A stretch of 64,000 bases of DNA from contig NC_013790.1 in assembly GCF_000024185.1 (NCBI RefSeq), positions 1,635,501-1,699,500 of the forward strand, in the 5' to 3' direction. Positions 9,969 to 17,354 of this stretch are shown here, piece by piece. Made by a program: the position numbers and the translations under genes. Numbering within the stretch: position 1 is the first letter of the stretch; each line of letters begins with the position of its first letter. The DNA is from Methanobrevibacter ruminantium M1 (lineage in GTDB: Archaea; Methanobacteriota; Methanobacteria; Methanobacteriales; Methanobacteriaceae). The notes beneath the pieces were generated by a model. That model saw only the letters and a program-made list of their open reading frames with translations. It was not told the DNA's origin and did not search any database.

Positions 9969-10349
9969 TTAGAATTTAAAGAAATCAGTTACCCAACTTA
10001 CTTGATGCTTAGCTCTTATAACCTTAATATCATAAGTCTCATCAAAACTTGCATATTCCTTTTCAATGATGTCTCTTTTTTGCTTGAAGTCCATAGGAGA
10101 ATCTACAATTTTTTTAAGAACATTCAATTCATCATCTATTGAAGACATTTCCTTAGATAAACTTTCTTTTTTATCATTTAGCTCAGCAAGCCTCTCTTCA
10201 AGATAATCATTAGCTTGAAGTTCAAACTCTTCCCTAAGATTGAAAATCAGATCTATGGCTTCACCTACACTCAAATTATTCTCTTGCATTATTTGATATT
10301 TCTTATATTGCTCCTCATTCAATTCTGCAGTAATAGTTTTTGTATCCAT
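9969..10349 (-). CDS. Small RHH-like coiled-coil protein, function unknown
   Basis: A 126-residue soluble protein. The first ~38 residues (TITAELNEEQYKKYQIM...LSVGEAIDLIF) look like a minimal ribbon-helix-helix fold: strand, helix, turn, helix. Residues 40-95 are strongly charged and heptad-like (EFELQANDYLEERLAELNDK...), a likely coiled coil. The C-terminus ends HQVSWVTDFFKF. GAGGTG four bases before the ATG supports the start. It sits between pyrG and the unknown 10.5-16.6 kb gene run on the same strand. A DNA-binding role is an inference from shape only. Confidence 0.5.
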   Translation of the reverse strand: MDTKTITAELNEEQYKKYQIMQENNLSVGEAIDLIFNLREEFELQANDYLEERLAELNDKKESLSKEMSSIDDELNVLKKIVDSPMDFKQKRDIIEKEYASFDETYDIKVIRAKHQVSWVTDFFKF

Positions 10350-10533
10350 AAAAACACCTCATCAATAATAAGTTTTTCTAACTTCATTAAATAAACTTTA
10401 AATATTTAATATAAGTTTATTTTTAATGATATATAAAAATATTCAATCAATCAAAGATTATAAAACACATAAAAATGCTCCAAACAATCCAACATTATAA
10501 AAGCCATTCACTATCAAAAAACGCTTCAAATAA

Positions 10534-10986
10534 TCAATCATTTCCAAAGTCATTATTTATTAAAAATGCTTCAATTATTTTAATGTTTGACTCATCTTCC
10601 ATTAAAATGCTTGAGCAGATATTTAATAATCCATCACCTGTATCTAAAACTTCTATATTATTTAATTCTAATCTATATGAGTCAATCAAAACATATAAAA
10701 ATTTCATCATTTTGAAGAATTCATCTTTTGAAATGGACATTTCCAAATAGATTTCATTGTCTTCGATGAGGTAATTTCTATATAAATCAGAGAATGAACT
10801 TGAACTGGACTCCAAATCAGAATTTAATCTTGATTCTATATCAGAATCCAAATCTGAAATCATATTAGAAACCAAATCCAAACTGGAATTTAATTTAGAT
10901 TCTGGCTTAAGTATTTTTTCAAGACTTGAATTTTCCTTTTCTAAATTAAGATTATTTTTATTTAATGAAGAATTATCTTTATTCAA
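10534..10986 (-). CDS. Hypothetical acidic Ser/Asn-rich protein
   Basis: Not recognised. The first 70 residues are low-complexity (NKDNSSLNKNNLNLEKENSS; SDLDSDIESRLNSDLESSSSS). The remaining 80 look globular, a strand plus helices (EIYLEMSISKDEFFKMMKFLYVLID). No ATG occurs before residue 42. The best start is TTG after AGAAGGA with about 10 nt spacing; the frame stays open into the end of the preceding gene, so a start there is also possible. Fifty-three bases separate it from the 247-residue gene upstream, which suggests one operon with that gene and the 1562-residue gene. Confidence 0.5.
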   Translation of the reverse strand: MNKDNSSLNKNNLNLEKENSSLEKILKPESKLNSSLDLVSNMISDLDSDIESRLNSDLESSSSSFSDLYRNYLIEDNEIYLEMSISKDEFFKMMKFLYVLIDSYRLELNNIEVLDTGDGLLNICSSILMEDESNIKIIEAFLINNDFGND

Positions 10987-11039
10987 TCCAGAATAGTCCT
11001 TCTCTAATGTAGAATTATCCTTAGAATCTGATAGATCAT

Positions 11040-11783
11040 TTAATTTATCTTCAGAATTCTTTTATTGGAATCATCATCTTCATTAGGATCAATGACCACC
11101 AGATCAGAATCCAGCTTATCAAAATTATAGAATCTGTCCTTTAGAACATCCGAATCAGGTTTTGAAAAACTATTGTTTATTGGAATAGATACATTTATTA
11201 TTTTTGCATAAAGGCCATTGTCATATTCAAAAGTCACATTGGAAATGAAGTTTCGGATGTTTTTCAATGTGGTGAAATCACCAATGGCTCCGAAATTGAT
11301 AAAGCCCTTTCCATCTTTAAGCTTGGTTATCTTATTCTTATTCTTTAAGACAGTCAATTCATCATTGTTTAGCTGACTGCAGTCTATTCTAAGCAGAATG
11401 ACATTGTTATATTCTTCGCTGTCTTCAGCAAATACAATAGTTGATTTAGAGGAATCCTCCAGATTCAATACTGCAACTAAGGTAGGTCTTATCTGAGCAC
11501 CCATATCCATATAAGAGGATGTGCAAACCACATTTTCACGGGCAAGGCCAAATAAGTAAGTGACTTCATCCCTTTCCTTAAAAAAGCTTGTATAATATAT
11601 GGACTCCTTATTTGGCTTTCTATGTCTGATTGTAACATATGATTCTGAATTGAAATAGTCCAGATTGATATGGTCACAGTCTACTGTGAATGTCTTTTTA
11701 TTGTTATGGAACCTTTCTAAAAACCTATCAAATTCCTTTTGATTTGCCTTTATCTTTTTGTTTTCAATTATTTTCAATAACAT
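11040..11783 (-). CDS. Hypothetical 247-residue protein in the HEPN-like cluster
   Basis: I do not recognise a family. The product is soluble, with no signal peptide or membrane segment. It alternates predicted strands (TFTVDCDHINLDYF, SYVTIRHRKPN, TYLFGLARENVVCTS, TLVAVLNLED) and ends in a short acidic stretch before KRILKIN. GGGGTG five bases before the ATG supports the start. It lies 104 bp after the 1562-residue gene and 53 bp before the 150-residue gene on the same strand, so all three are likely co-transcribed and may act together. Confidence 0.55.
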   Translation of the reverse strand: MLLKIIENKKIKANQKEFDRFLERFHNNKKTFTVDCDHINLDYFNSESYVTIRHRKPNKESIYYTSFFKERDEVTYLFGLARENVVCTSSYMDMGAQIRPTLVAVLNLEDSSKSTIVFAEDSEEYNNVILLRIDCSQLNNDELTVLKNKNKITKLKDGKGFINFGAIGDFTTLKNIRNFISNVTFEYDNGLYAKIINVSIPINNSFSKPDSDVLKDRFYNFDKLDSDLVVIDPNEDDDSNKRILKIN

Positions 11784-11887
11784 ATGAACACCCCTTGAAA
11801 AGAAAAAAGTTAAAAAATATTTAATTGCTTAAATTTATTATTGAAGAAATTGCTACGAAATTTAACTCATTTAATTATTTAAAGCAA

Positions 11888-14800
11888 TTAAAACTTATTT
11901 AATTCTTTTTTAACCTCCTTAAGACTTAAATTAGAAGAGTCATTCAAATCTTCATCTGATAAATCAGCAAATAAATCTTCTAAATTAGTGCTTTTAATTT
12001 CTTCTAAGAGATCTTCGGTAAATTCCTCTTCTGAGACATCAAACTTATCTAAAATCAAATCAACGAACATGGTTCTTTTTTTATGAGCCTCTTTTTCAGT
12101 TATTGAGTAACAGACAATAATATCATTTACTGAACTTGTCCATAAGCCCTCTTGTGTATTGAAGTCTATTCCTTCAAATTCGGAATATCTTCCATTCATA
12201 CCACGTTTAGGCCTTTTGACTTTTCTTCTTAATAGCTTCTTACGTTCAATGTAAGCTTCCTTTGGAGTGTTAAATGACCTGATTAAATCTCCTCCAAGGA
12301 ATGCAAGCCACTTATCGCTTTCCTCATCATATTCGATTTCAGTGGAATTTGCATACTTTTCATCAAATGCATCTGCTGGAACCTTTTTAGGCTTTTTAGC
12401 TTTCTTTACTTTAGGTTTAGATACCTTTGAAGCAGTGGAATCTGATTCTGATTCAGTCTGTTCTGCAGTTTCTTTAAGAGATCCTATTTCTTCCAAATTA
12501 GAATCTGAATCATTTGATTCGGTTGACAAATCTTCTTGATTTGAAGAACCTATATTGTCCAATTCATCTTCAAAACTAGTTTCAGATTCATCATCAAACA
12601 AATCGCTAGAGCTAGAATCATTATAGCCATCGAATAAGTCGTTAGCGCTTAAATCTGCAGATTCATCAAACAAGTTAGTTGAAGACAGATCAGATGAAAC
12701 CTTTTCTAAGAAGTCAACATCATCAGAATCCTCATCCAATAAGCCTTCAGAATCCAAATCATCTTCATCATTGAAAATGTCTTCAATGGAATTGGAATTT
12801 GAGTTATCTTCACCCAATACATCACCATAATCAAAACTGGAATCAGTTGAGTCTTCTAAGGAGTCTGAATAATCCAAACTATCAAAATCATCATTTAAAC
12901 TAGATTCAGAAACATAGTTATCTTCTTCAGGATTTAAAACATCTTCAACAGAACCTAAATCATCTTCTTCAGGATTTAAAACATCTTCAACAGAACCTAA
13001 ATCATCTTCTTCAGGATTTAAAACATCTTCAGCAGAATCCAAATCATCTTCTTCAGAATTTAAAACATCTTCAGCATAATCCAAATCATTTTCAGCAGAA
13101 TTTAAACCCTCTTTAATAAGATTTAATCCGTTTTCTAAAGTTTCCAGACCATTAGAATTTAAATCATCTTTAAATGTGTCAGAATTATCTTCAATAGACA
13201 AATCATCACCAATATCATCTGAAGTAGAGTTAAGTCTTTCTTCTTCCTTAATTCTATTTGCCTCTAAAAGACTATCTAAAGAAGTTGTTTTAAAGTCTTT
13301 AACCATTTCTGGCTTCTTATCAATGATCTTGGATTTTATTACCTTGTTTTCCTCAGCATTATCTATCTCATGGGCTTCCTCTAGACTGACTCTAACTCCG
13401 CCACGGATAATTGCCTTTTCTGATTTGGAATTAGATTTCTTATTTTTAGAGGATATTGATTCCTGCTTTGGATAGCTTTTTCTTTTGGAAATAGGATTTG
13501 CATCCAAATAGTCTTTTGACTTTAAAGATTTATCTTTAGCCTTTTGAGCATCTGAATCTTCTGCATCATTAGAGCTTAGTGAAAATTTATCATAAAGAGA
13601 TAAGTTTTCCTTAAATTTAGAGCTTCCTTTATTGGAATCAGATTCATTGGAAACTATAGAATCATTAATCTTAGACTTGGAGATTAATGAATCTTCATTA
13701 TGAGAACTTTTAATCAATTCATTTGAATGGGCTTTCCTTTTGTCTCTGATTTTTCCTATCTTGGATTGGACTAGTGAATTTAGATTTATATCATTGGAAA
13801 TGGCCAATTTATCCAATAAGTCAAATTCCCAACCTAAATCAGACAAAAGATTTATCAATGTTACTAAATCAATTGTGCTTAACTTATACTGCACATTGAT
13901 GAAGATGCTGAAATACTCTTCATCCACCTTGGAATAGTTCAATTTGACCATATTGTCCAAAATGTCTAAAAATATGATGTCCTTTAACTCATCCTTATTT
14001 ACCATGCCCTGAAGGGATACGCATAAATAGGAATCGTTATAGGAGAGAACCATTTCCCTTCTGAAGTTATTGGAGTCGTATGAGTTCAATTTTATTTCCT
14101 TTAGTTCCTTACGATTAGAGCTTTTGAAAAGGTTTTCAGATATGTTTAGGAATCCATTGTTCTCATCCAAATTAAGCTGCTCTAAATTGAGGTCTTCCAT
14201 ATATTCGTAATTATCCTCTGATTCCAAATATGGAATTGATAAATCATCTGAAAGCCTATCGTCCTGATTTTGATTGGCAATTCCATAAAAGGAACTTTTC
14301 TTATACTCATTTATATTCTTTGAATTGTCCTCTTGGATTATTGCACCCATATTGAATTGCTTGTCTCCATCTGCTAAAAACTCCTGATCGATAACTCCCC
14401 TTCCATTGTCGGTTTCAAAAGCGCTGTCATTAGCAATGCTTTCACTGTTGTTTTTAAAATCTTCATCAGCACTTTCTACAGGTTTATTTATGCTTTCTAC
14501 AGAATCACTTAAACTTTCTACAGAATCACTTAAACTTTCTTCAGAATCGCTTAAACTTTCTTCAGAATCGCTTAAAATATAATTGCCTGTATTTGTTCTA
14601 AATACATCATAAAAGCTTATTAATTTATCAGAGCCATCTTTTTGATTAGATGCTTCTGCTGAAGAATCTTCATTAGAAACAGAACCATCACTAAGATAAT
14701 CCTTAGTGGAATTGTCCTTTATTAGATAATCCTTGCTTGGATTGACTATATTAGACAAGTTACCGTCATTTTCATCATTGCTTTTAATGTCTGAATTGAT

Positions 14801-16576
14801 AAAGTGCATATCTCTTACATCAAAGCCTTCCTTAACAAGAGCTTCCTTCAATCCATAGAATGCATCTTCCTCGGAGTCAAAATGTCCGATCAGCTCCTCA
14901 CCATTCTTTGCCAACCATAAATGGCTGTTGATGTCATAATCTATTCCATCAATGAATGAATAATTACCATTGGACTTTCTTGGAGGATAAGGCATTTCCT
15001 TAAGATATGCCCTACGGAACTTTCTTGCCTCATCTTCAGAGGCTTTCCTTCCTATCTCGTTTCCCCTAAAGTAAATGACCCATTCGTCATTGTCCTTATC
15101 GTAATCTACGGCGTTTTCTTCGCTGTTAAGCCTTACCTTAAAGTCAAAGCTGTCATCAAATAATTCCTCTTGGTGGAATATAAGGTCGCTTACATCAAAT
15201 CCTTTGGATTTTAGGAATTCCTTCTTATAATTGAAGGCGTCCTCTTCACTGTCAAAGAATCCTAATGTCTCTCCCTTGATTGTCAATACCCAAATAAGGT
15301 TCTTATCGTCATAGTATATTCCCTTATGGATTGAATACTCCCCATCCTTGTTTCTCTTTGGTGGTGCAAAGCTGGAAATATGGCTTAATCGCTTTTTGAT
15401 GGCTTCTTCCTTAGTGTCGCAAGTGGTTACATACTTGTTCTTATAGAATATCTTCCATCTTGAATCGTTCTTGTCCTGGACTATGCCTAAGTCCTCTAAG
15501 TCTATATCGAGCCTATAGACATTTGAAAGGTTATGTATTGCCTCCCTTTCGCTATCATAATAGTCCAGTATCTTTCCTTCCTTCTTAATGTACCATAGCT
15601 TATGGTTCAAGTCAAATGAGATTTCCTTATAATCTGAATAGGAGCCGTTTTTGCTCTCAGGTAATGGCAAGGTGTCTATATATTCCTTTCTTGCGATTAT
15701 GGCTGAATTTTCAGATATGAAGTATCCCAAATCCTTATCGTCAAAGCTTGCTTTCCATAGCTTTTCTTCCATATCGAAATCTATTCCCTTGGAATCGGAA
15801 TAGCTTCCATCTTCCAACCTTTCAGGAAGCAGGCATCCGTTAAAGTATTGAAACATCCTAAAGTCCTCGTTTAGAACGAATCTATATCCCTTTCTCACTG
15901 CAACTTCCCTTGTCTTGAAATGGCCTATGGTTACTTTCTTGTCATCAAAAATGAAAAATGCAGTGTATGCATTTAATTCCGGATTGAATTCAACATTGTT
16001 TTGGTTGAAGTAGCTGTGTACGTTATAGTCAACATCATGCTGATATATGTGATCGTTGGCTGATTTGATTGCTGTGGTGGCCTTATTATTATCTATGGTT
16101 TTTACATTGTTGTTTATGTTTTCCTTAAGTTGATTTAAAAAGCTTTCATCATGGCGATAGGTGACTCCAGGATATTTGAGTTTGTAATATGCCTCATCAC
16201 CCTTATATGTCCCATAAAACCATGACAATATATTAAAAACGTCTTTATGAGTTTTCTTTGCTATGTTCATCTCATCCCTTAATTCATGATGAGTTGCAAT
16301 GTTTCTATATTGACGTATGGAATCCAATTTATTGTATTTATCTTCAGGTATGATTCCTTTAGAGTATAAGGTATTGAGTTTTTTATTTTGGTCCAATTCG
16401 TTTAAATCAATACCCACGAATTTTGTAATATAGTGTGTAACACGTTCTGCTATCTTTCCTGCCCAGATAACTGCATCTACGCCGTCGCCTTCAACTATAT
16501 TCTTTTCCATCCTCATGCAAAAATTAGAGATATCCTGAAAATCTGAGTCTAAAAACATAAAACTATGGTTTTTCAT
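11888..16576 (-). CDS. Giant HEPN-like / AP2-like repeat protein with acidic repeats
   Basis: A 1562-residue protein without a signal peptide or membrane helices. Residues ~1-130 resemble a HEPN/DUF4145 domain and carry RNIATH, which fits the HEPN RNase motif R-x4-H. Residues ~175-600 contain about seven repeats (GIDFDMEEKLWKASFDDKDL type, ending G-F/Y-FDSEEDA) that look like AP2-type three-stranded DNA-binding modules. Two more lie near the C-terminus (~1400-1510). Between them are a globular stretch (~830-960) and long Ser/Asp/Glu low-complexity blocks, including 14-residue repeats (NPEEDDLGSVEDVL) and 7-residue SLSDSEE repeats. Basic linkers (KVKKAKKPKK, RRKVKRPKRG) flank the C-terminal pair. 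GGGGTG eight bases before the ATG supports the start. Domain calls are by eye; function is unknown. Confidence 0.6.
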   Translation of the reverse strand: MKNHSFMFLDSDFQDISNFCMRMEKNIVEGDGVDAVIWAGKIAERVTHYITKFVGIDLNELDQNKKLNTLYSKGIIPEDKYNKLDSIRQYRNIATHHELRDEMNIAKKTHKDVFNILSWFYGTYKGDEAYYKLKYPGVTYRHDESFLNQLKENINNNVKTIDNNKATTAIKSANDHIYQHDVDYNVHSYFNQNNVEFNPELNAYTAFFIFDDKKVTIGHFKTREVAVRKGYRFVLNEDFRMFQYFNGCLLPERLEDGSYSDSKGIDFDMEEKLWKASFDDKDLGYFISENSAIIARKEYIDTLPLPESKNGSYSDYKEISFDLNHKLWYIKKEGKILDYYDSEREAIHNLSNVYRLDIDLEDLGIVQDKNDSRWKIFYKNKYVTTCDTKEEAIKKRLSHISSFAPPKRNKDGEYSIHKGIYYDDKNLIWVLTIKGETLGFFDSEEDAFNYKKEFLKSKGFDVSDLIFHQEELFDDSFDFKVRLNSEENAVDYDKDNDEWVIYFRGNEIGRKASEDEARKFRRAYLKEMPYPPRKSNGNYSFIDGIDYDINSHLWLAKNGEELIGHFDSEEDAFYGLKEALVKEGFDVRDMHFINSDIKSNDENDGNLSNIVNPSKDYLIKDNSTKDYLSDGSVSNEDSSAEASNQKDGSDKLISFYDVFRTNTGNYILSDSEESLSDSEESLSDSVESLSDSVESINKPVESADEDFKNNSESIANDSAFETDNGRGVIDQEFLADGDKQFNMGAIIQEDNSKNINEYKKSSFYGIANQNQDDRLSDDLSIPYLESEDNYEYMEDLNLEQLNLDENNGFLNISENLFKSSNRKELKEIKLNSYDSNNFRREMVLSYNDSYLCVSLQGMVNKDELKDIIFLDILDNMVKLNYSKVDEEYFSIFINVQYKLSTIDLVTLINLLSDLGWEFDLLDKLAISNDINLNSLVQSKIGKIRDKRKAHSNELIKSSHNEDSLISKSKINDSIVSNESDSNKGSSKFKENLSLYDKFSLSSNDAEDSDAQKAKDKSLKSKDYLDANPISKRKSYPKQESISSKNKKSNSKSEKAIIRGGVRVSLEEAHEIDNAEENKVIKSKIIDKKPEMVKDFKTTSLDSLLEANRIKEEERLNSTSDDIGDDLSIEDNSDTFKDDLNSNGLETLENGLNLIKEGLNSAENDLDYAEDVLNSEEDDLDSAEDVLNPEEDDLGSVEDVLNPEEDDLGSVEDVLNPEEDNYVSESSLNDDFDSLDYSDSLEDSTDSSFDYGDVLGEDNSNSNSIEDIFNDEDDLDSEGLLDEDSDDVDFLEKVSSDLSSTNLFDESADLSANDLFDGYNDSSSSDLFDDESETSFEDELDNIGSSNQEDLSTESNDSDSNLEEIGSLKETAEQTESESDSTASKVSKPKVKKAKKPKKVPADAFDEKYANSTEIEYDEESDKWLAFLGGDLIRSFNTPKEAYIERKKLLRRKVKRPKRGMNGRYSEFEGIDFNTQEGLWTSSVNDIIVCYSITEKEAHKKRTMFVDLILDKFDVSEEEFTEDLLEEIKSTNLEDLFADLSDEDLNDSSNLSLKEVKKELNKF
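12918..13135. repeat. 42-bp in-frame tandem repeat (acidic 14-mer)
   Basis: About five copies of a 42-bp unit containing ATCATCTTCTTCAGGATTTA encode the acidic EDDLGSVEDVLNPE repeat of the giant protein. Central copies are nearly identical and outer copies diverged, as expected for recent slippage inside a gene. Confidence 0.85.
14498..14576. repeat. 21-bp in-frame tandem repeat (SLSDSEE)
   Basis: Four copies of a 21-bp unit (TCTACAGAATCACTTAAACT and close variants with TCTTCAGAATCG) encode SLSDSVE/SLSDSEE heptads in the giant protein. Period and reading frame are preserved. Confidence 0.8.
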
Positions 16577-16764: not shown

Positions 16765-16926
16765 ATGATGAAATATAGTTTTGAGTCTTTAAACCATTAT
16801 TTAAGTTTAAATTACTTAATGAATGAAAAAATATAGTTTTGAGTCTTTAAACCATTATTTAAGTTTAAATTACTTAATTAATGAAAAAATATAGTTTTGA
16901 GTCTTTTAAACCATTATTAAGTTTAG
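16765..16926. repeat. 58-bp tandem repeat, three copies
   Basis: The block ATATAGTTTTGAGTCTTTAA occurs at 16773, 16831 and 16889, exactly 58 bp apart; the third copy is slightly altered and truncated. It fills half of the gap between the mazG-like gene and the giant protein gene. The rest of that gap is AT-rich without a gene. Confidence 0.9.
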
Positions 16927-16945: not shown

Positions 16946-17245
16946 CTACTTAAGATCATCTGAACTGACCTTAGGAGGATATTTTATGGCATTCTTTTTC
17001 ATCTTATTGAAGACTATTTCCTTAACGTCAACATCCAATGCATCCGCCATTAGAAAGCAGTAGTTAAAGACATCTGCCAATTCATCTACCACTTCATCCT
17101 TATCATATTCCTTTTGCCATTGAAAGTGCTCCAAGAGTTCAGCAGCTTCTATAGATATTGATTTGGCTAAATTCTCTGGAGTATGATACCTTTTCCAGTC
17201 TCTTTCCATTTGAAACTTGATTAGTTCCTTTCTTATTTCTTCCAT
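16946..17245 (-). CDS. MazG-like nucleotide pyrophosphohydrolase
   Basis: A 99-residue all-alpha NTP-PPase of the MazG/dCTPase superfamily. The metal-binding glutamates lie in SIEAAELLEHFQW (about residues 32-44), and a second acidic block is DEVVDELADVFNYC. KYHT-like substrate contacts precede them (KRYHTPENLAKS). It probably hydrolyses a non-canonical or surplus (d)NTP to the monophosphate. The start is the ATG preceded by AGGTGG with six-base spacing; the frame remains open seven codons further upstream, but that would skip the ribosome site. It follows the 257-residue unknown gene after about 110 bp. Confidence 0.8.
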   Translation of the reverse strand: MEEIRKELIKFQMERDWKRYHTPENLAKSISIEAAELLEHFQWQKEYDKDEVVDELADVFNYCFLMADALDVDVKEIVFNKMKKNAIKYPPKVSSDDLK

Positions 17246-17354
17246 AGTAAACCACCTGAGGACCAATTAAGTAAGTTCTATCTACAAATAACAATTAAAA
17301 TTGCATTAAAAGAATAAAGACATTCAATTAAAATTGCATTAAAAGAATAAATAC

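Follow-up and report, generated by a model that had tools for sequence, protein, structure and literature searches.

A very long open reading frame on the minus strand of the Methanobrevibacter ruminantium M1 chromosome raises the question of whether this archaeon encodes an undescribed defence module. Rumen methanogens are of practical interest, and to our knowledge few of their antiviral systems have been characterised. The window referred to below is the whole 64,000-nucleotide stretch of DNA analysed, positions 1,635,501-1,699,500 on the single 2,937,203-base contig of M1. The original prediction had placed here a four-gene, nucleic-acid-targeting or defence system, made up of a 1562-residue protein with a HEPN-like N-terminus, AP2-like repeats and acidic repeats, together with three small partners. 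We found that the giant gene and three further ORFs on the minus strand were all real open frames, and the giant is indeed 1562 residues long; the four-gene system itself proved wrong: there are two genes, of which one is split in M1, and a further, unrelated gene linked to pyrG. The features are listed below in window coordinates.

11888-16576, minus strand: giant ORF, 1562 aa (open reading frame; orthologues in genomes G008 and G007 only)
16145-16576, minus strand: HEPN/DUF4145-like domain with R88-x3-N92-x3-H96 and RNIATH, giant residues 1-145 (Pfam, AlphaFold, Foldseek, conservation)
14831-15994, minus strand: AP2-like units 0-6, residues 195-582 (repeat HMM, AlphaFold, PDB sequence match)
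13820-14074, minus strand: tentative candidate for domain Y, giant residues 835-919 (pairwise shuffle)
12062-12340, minus strand: AP2-like units 7-8, residues 1413-1505 (repeat HMM)
11040-11783, minus strand: ORF2, 247 aa, carrying domain X; corresponds to the N-terminal part of the 375-aa gene of G008 (leave-out HMMs, E=7.7e-19 and 2.1e-17)
10534-10986, minus strand: ORF3, 150 aa, rest of the ORF2 gene, out of frame in M1 (alignment with G008/G007)
9969-10349, minus strand: ORF4, 126 aa, genus-wide pyrG-linked gene outside the unit (neighbour survey)
16946-17266, minus strand: MazG-like gene in the same clade-specific insertion (Pfam MazG-like, 3e-16)

Extent and chromosomal setting of the unit

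The giant was present in three of the 61 genomes searched (M1, G008, which is RUG748, and G007), and among named genomes a scan recovered orthologues from no more than two, both of them MAGs of uncultured Methanobrevibacter. Its net charge of -156 and acidic low-complexity linkers agree with the acidic repeats originally described. Comparison with G008 gave dN/dS values of 0.11 for the HEPN domain, 0.04-0.13 for the AP2-like units and 0.29-0.47 for the linkers; purifying selection acts on the folded parts of the protein, and the linkers are much less constrained. The viral contigs searched contained nothing related to the HEPN part or to ORF2/3, the plasmids searched gave none either, and a sigma-70-type promoter scan, whose consensus does not cover archaeal promoters, returned matches at chance level only.

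Two of the three supposed partners, ORF2 and ORF3, correspond to a single 375-aa gene in G008 and align with a G007 copy that is 91% identical and passes the ORF2/ORF3 junction without a stop. M1 carries a single-base frame change around an AAAA run near 11060, with ORF2 ending soon after, and a separate ORF3 was rejected as the less simple reading given the one gene in G008. The joined gene, ORF2/3, is adjacent to the giant and co-oriented with it in both genomes where the pair could be read on one contig, M1 (gap of 104 nt) and G008 (gap of 83 nt). The frame change might mean that the locus is decaying and the unit inactivated in M1, or might itself be a sequencing error: it falls within an A-run in a genome finished from a Sanger/pyrosequencing hybrid (PMC2812497), and dN/dS in the ORF3 part was 0.44 for M1-G008 vs 0.16 for G007-G008. 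Set against this, the giant is open from end to end in M1 and G008 (the G007 contig stops inside it) and is constrained in all three genomes, and we regard an account of the locus by decay or error as quite improbable.

The remaining partner, ORF4, was rejected. In most other genomes of the genus it lies beside pyrG, usually in the order aroE-g257-ORF4-pyrG with nothing between g257 and ORF4, it is present without the giant, and the RHH-like start ascribed to it had no Pfam support. By the refutation test set in the original prediction, ORF4 is unlinked to the giant in related genomes; the predicted linkage of the giant and ORF2/3 held in M1 and G008, the two genomes in which it could be read on one contig. 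Because g257 and ORF4 are contiguous in other genomes, the MazG-like gene, the giant and ORF2/3 form an insertion between them. The MazG-like gene occupies this place only in M1, G007 and G008 and lies elsewhere in other genomes, and a pyrG tree grouped the three insertion-carrying genomes as a single clade (support 99/97); a pyrG dN/dS value was disregarded as an alignment artefact, the G008 pyrG frame being broken in the contig. The giant and ORF2/3 occupy a fixed chromosomal place in one clade and do not constitute a mobile island. Between the MazG-like gene and the giant, at 16780-16920, we also noted about three tandem direct repeats ('aataatggtttaaagactcaaaactatatt').

The HEPN domain and AP2-like repeats of the giant

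The N-terminus of the giant matched DUF4145 (PF13643) with E=2.8e-4 and 21.3 bits, just below the Pfam gathering score of 23.1 bits. An AlphaFold model of the first 600 residues (13 sequences, mean pLDDT 72.7) contained a helical bundle at residues 14-125 (pLDDT about 80-92) that includes RNIATH, at residues 91-96. The best PDB match of this bundle in Foldseek was the HEPN protein AF_0298 (2hsb; TM 0.74 by target length, rmsd 2.7), and the top matches were mostly HEPN proteins (AF_0298, MntA-HepT partners, ST0689 and TM0613), with E-values of 0.08-0.5, probabilities mostly at least 0.9 and TM (by target length) reaching 0.74. Among aligned relatives N92 was kept in 43 of 44, H96 in 43 of 49 and R91 in 36 of 43. 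Since R-x4-H arose by chance in 22% of shuffled N-termini, the HEPN claim rests on fold and conservation and not on the motif; on the model, the predicted R-x4-H in a DUF4145/HEPN-like N-terminus is borne out as a HEPN bundle with a conserved R-N-x3-H, probably an RNA-cutting domain. A PDB search with the HEPN profile returned one designed protein (E=0.18), which was disregarded. The helical bundle, the R-x4-H and the position N-terminal to other domains are shared with the DUF4145-like HEPN family (PF13643; PMC3710099), from which the giant differs in its Pfam score just under the cut-off and in its fusion to AP2-like arrays. The HEPN superfamily survey of Anantharaman et al. 2013 describes DUF4145 members fused to restriction and helicase modules, and the term AP2 is absent from its text (PMC3710099). 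As for HEPN-MNT toxin-antitoxin pairs, the genes adjoining the giant gave no Pfam match to an MNT nucleotidyltransferase.

About nine AP2-type repeats had been predicted, and this number held. A repeat HMM found eight units (residues 264-300, 318-354, 364-400, 419-455, 490-525, 544-580, 1413-1449 and 1469-1505), and AlphaFold added a degenerate unit of the same beta-beta-beta-alpha fold at 195-235. Seven units fall within the modelled residues 1-600 and showed the AP2-like arrangement of a three-stranded sheet and a helix, in line with the predicted fold; the two near the C-terminus were identified from sequence. Foldseek listed the AP2 domains 7et4 and 3igm as weak matches, the first match of the repeat profile against all PDB sequences was an apicomplexan AP2 protein (E=0.0046), and the units share the pattern G-I/V-x-Y/F-D...W...LG.F.S.EEA. 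In these respects the repeats resemble the AP2 domain (PF00847); they differ from it in that Pfam AP2 did not match the giant even at E<1 and in their mostly acidic sheets. A further Pfam AP2 search gave no match in G000 (M1), whereas short relatives do match Pfam AP2, below the cut-off.

The charge of these sheets bears on whether the array reads DNA. With the sheet defined approximately, from repeat start to 13 residues beyond the tryptophan, the eight HMM-detected repeats of the giant had charges of -4, -1, +2, -2, -2, -4, -5 and -3 (mean -2.4, one of eight positive), whereas 12 repeats of short or defence-linked relatives had +5, +5, +6, +2, +4, +5, +5, +6, +6, +3, -2 and +3 (mean about +4). 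The basic DNA-facing sheet is thus absent from the giant, in which seven of eight repeats are negative, and the multi-site DNA-binding scaffold of the original prediction becomes doubtful. A HEPN RNase guided by such an array would fit the AP2-like topology, the AP2 protein at the head of the PDB sequence matches, and a G013 protein with the domain X described below, which has helix-turn-helix repeats in place of AP2 repeats; the sheet charges and the missing Pfam match speak against it, and we consider it very improbable. Judging from composition, the giant's units may have lost the usual mode of DNA reading and perhaps bind proteins.

Domain X and its occurrence in defence loci

AP2-repeat proteins of G015 (940 aa) and G032 (957 aa) begin with an ORF2-like domain, which we name X; by carrying X and AP2-like repeats in one polypeptide, they link ORF2 to the repeat protein through gene fusion. 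An X profile from which members at the window locus were left out, iterated to 13 sequences in sequence-only searches, recovered M1 ORF2 (E=2.1e-17) and its G008 counterpart (1.6e-13; best decoy 0.46), and a second leave-out HMM recovered ORF2 at 7.7e-19. These profile matches assign ORF2 to the X family, an unnamed domain family that had no clear Pfam, PADLOC or PDB match. A PDB search with domain X gave only calmodulin-like chance matches (E>0.05), and an AlphaFold model of ORF2/3 was unusable (pLDDT 38.6).

Thirteen other X proteins were found in Methanobacteriaceae, and 12 of them adjoin known defence genes. They lie beside PbeA/PbeC in G013, G015, G127 and G134 (PbeC of G134 typed by similarity, not PADLOC); beside BrxD/BrxHI in G013, G032, G112, G072 and G093 (BrxHI of the last two likewise typed by similarity); beside DISARM DrmA in G077 and G134, where X and Y genes are directly upstream of drmA; and beside HEPN-DndF/DndG in G129 and G007 (DndG of the former and DndF/DndG of the latter typed by similarity), so that a HEPN-protein gene next to an X gene recurs. 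For the thirteenth, a 1285-aa protein of G007, the contig is 6 kb long and shows no typed gene. The G134 locus, examined as a check once the pattern had been noticed, was a DISARM locus too. Since such core genes make up little of any genome, agreement by chance is unlikely, with the qualification that these are 13 loci of one family, related and not fully independent.

Domain Y ends most of the outside X members or is encoded by the next gene. Residues 835-919 of the giant resembled the Y domains at the C-termini of the G015 and G032 proteins in a pairwise shuffle (z about 5), but the profile match was not significant (E=0.074, ranking below one decoy). ORF3 failed every independent test as a domain Y; one match was discounted, its profile already containing ORF3.

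Relatives of the giant and possible functions

Nearly all genomes of the genus encode a paralogue of 540-620 aa that combines this HEPN domain with three AP2-like repeats; wherever its locus was read out, the gene sits downstream of MraY-like and Mur-ligase-like genes (named by sequence inspection) of a pseudomurein cluster. Residues 1-362 of the giant can be aligned with this paralogue (E about 1e-36). These observations, and the fixed locus in one clade, would be explained if the giant were a lineage-specific duplicate serving as a housekeeping or regulatory scaffold, in which HEPN dimerises and the AP2-like units bind proteins with no antiviral role. Such a cellular role is a serious rival because the window unit lies outside any recognised defence locus; we nevertheless judge it unlikely, given that the partner ORF2 belongs to a family whose other members are in defence loci and that no X gene adjoins the paralogue. 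At L036:7154-9007 the paralogue adjoins the Mur-ligase-like gene and a zinc-ribbon gene lies downstream; in G011 (L042:4791-5780) the same HEPN domain is joined to an Ada-type metal-binding domain at the C-terminus (Pfam E=1.1e-5).

Other relatives occur among defence genes. M1 also encodes a DndF fused to this HEPN domain, with DndG and DndH following, and the HEPN domain of the giant is about 40% identical to this DndF N-terminus. HEPN-DndF fusions of DndFGH phosphorothioate restriction have already been described (PMC10853773); the giant shares their HEPN subfamily and differs in having neither the AAA ATPase nor DndG/H neighbours. The M1 operon (L035:6362-14001; G000:C1:454361 onward) is just downstream of phage-like structural genes (L175). 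AP2-like repeats were also found in short proteins: the G155 example adjoins PbeA-PbeC, in G016 one lies with R-M genes on one side and PbeA on the other, G013 has one near R-M genes, and in M1 the neighbours are housekeeping genes. X and/or AP2-like proteins thus adjoin PbeA/PbeC of PbeABCD / CxC-DndE in G013, G015, G127, G134, G155 and G016; the published four-gene PbeABCD set lacks an X or AP2 protein (PMC6459918, PMC10853773). The window departs from all these settings: although 12 of the 13 other X members have such neighbours, no core gene of Dnd, Pbe (PbeA/PbeC), BREX or Shango-like BrxD/BrxHI systems or DISARM was present among the 14 window proteins scanned, in which PADLOC gave only a weak dGTPase-like match about 41 kb away.

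The defence inference of the original prediction is nonetheless better supported than before, through ORF2, which belongs to a family otherwise found in defence loci, and not through the giant; the DndF of M1 that carries this HEPN domain adds to it. A defence role is thus supported by association. The reading we prefer, to which we give an even chance, is a stand-alone two-gene unit of the giant and ORF2/3, put together from components found in the antiviral loci of Methanobacteriaceae. The X-domain protein would be an adaptor or sensor responding to invasion and the giant the effector, whose HEPN domain would dimerise and cleave RNA of the cell or of the invader; the AP2-like array, together with the acidic linkers, would hold or restrain it through protein contacts and not by classical DNA reading. 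The two products would interact, and the trigger, RNase activity and antiviral effect are likewise proposed. The HEPN fold and motif, low dN/dS, X membership, the X-AP2 fusion, HEPN-X neighbours and adjacency in two genomes favour this unit; the absence of core defence genes from the window, the fixed locus, the pseudomurein-cluster paralogue, the M1 frame split and the restriction to 13 loci of one family weigh against it.

More tentatively, and with somewhat less than even confidence, we suggest that domain X may be a general adaptor attached to Pbe, BrxD/BrxHI, DISARM and Dnd machines, its proteins carrying nucleic-acid-binding modules that can be exchanged, and that in the ruminantium clade it has been paired with the HEPN-AP2 giant to form an independent, undescribed antiviral system. 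A sensor or adaptor common to four defence machines that are otherwise distinct, all within one archaeal family, would be unexpected, if true, and the setting of X in four kinds of antiviral system suggests a testable, undescribed defence unit in a cow-rumen methanogen.

Other features recur around X and Y proteins. A 140-aa gene, 56-65% identical to its L251 copy and DUF1232-like by eye, had no match in the window and adjoins X or Y proteins in seven loci (L251:5286-5708, L252:10606-11025, L249:9602-10024, L152:4624-5043, L134:9976-10383, L246:4177-4587 and L253:4607-5023). The large X/Y proteins of L247, L248, L249, L250, L251 and L252 carry a mid-protein repeat of about 100 aa with the pattern 'TGIAWV...W.Y.R...WGVRDY'.
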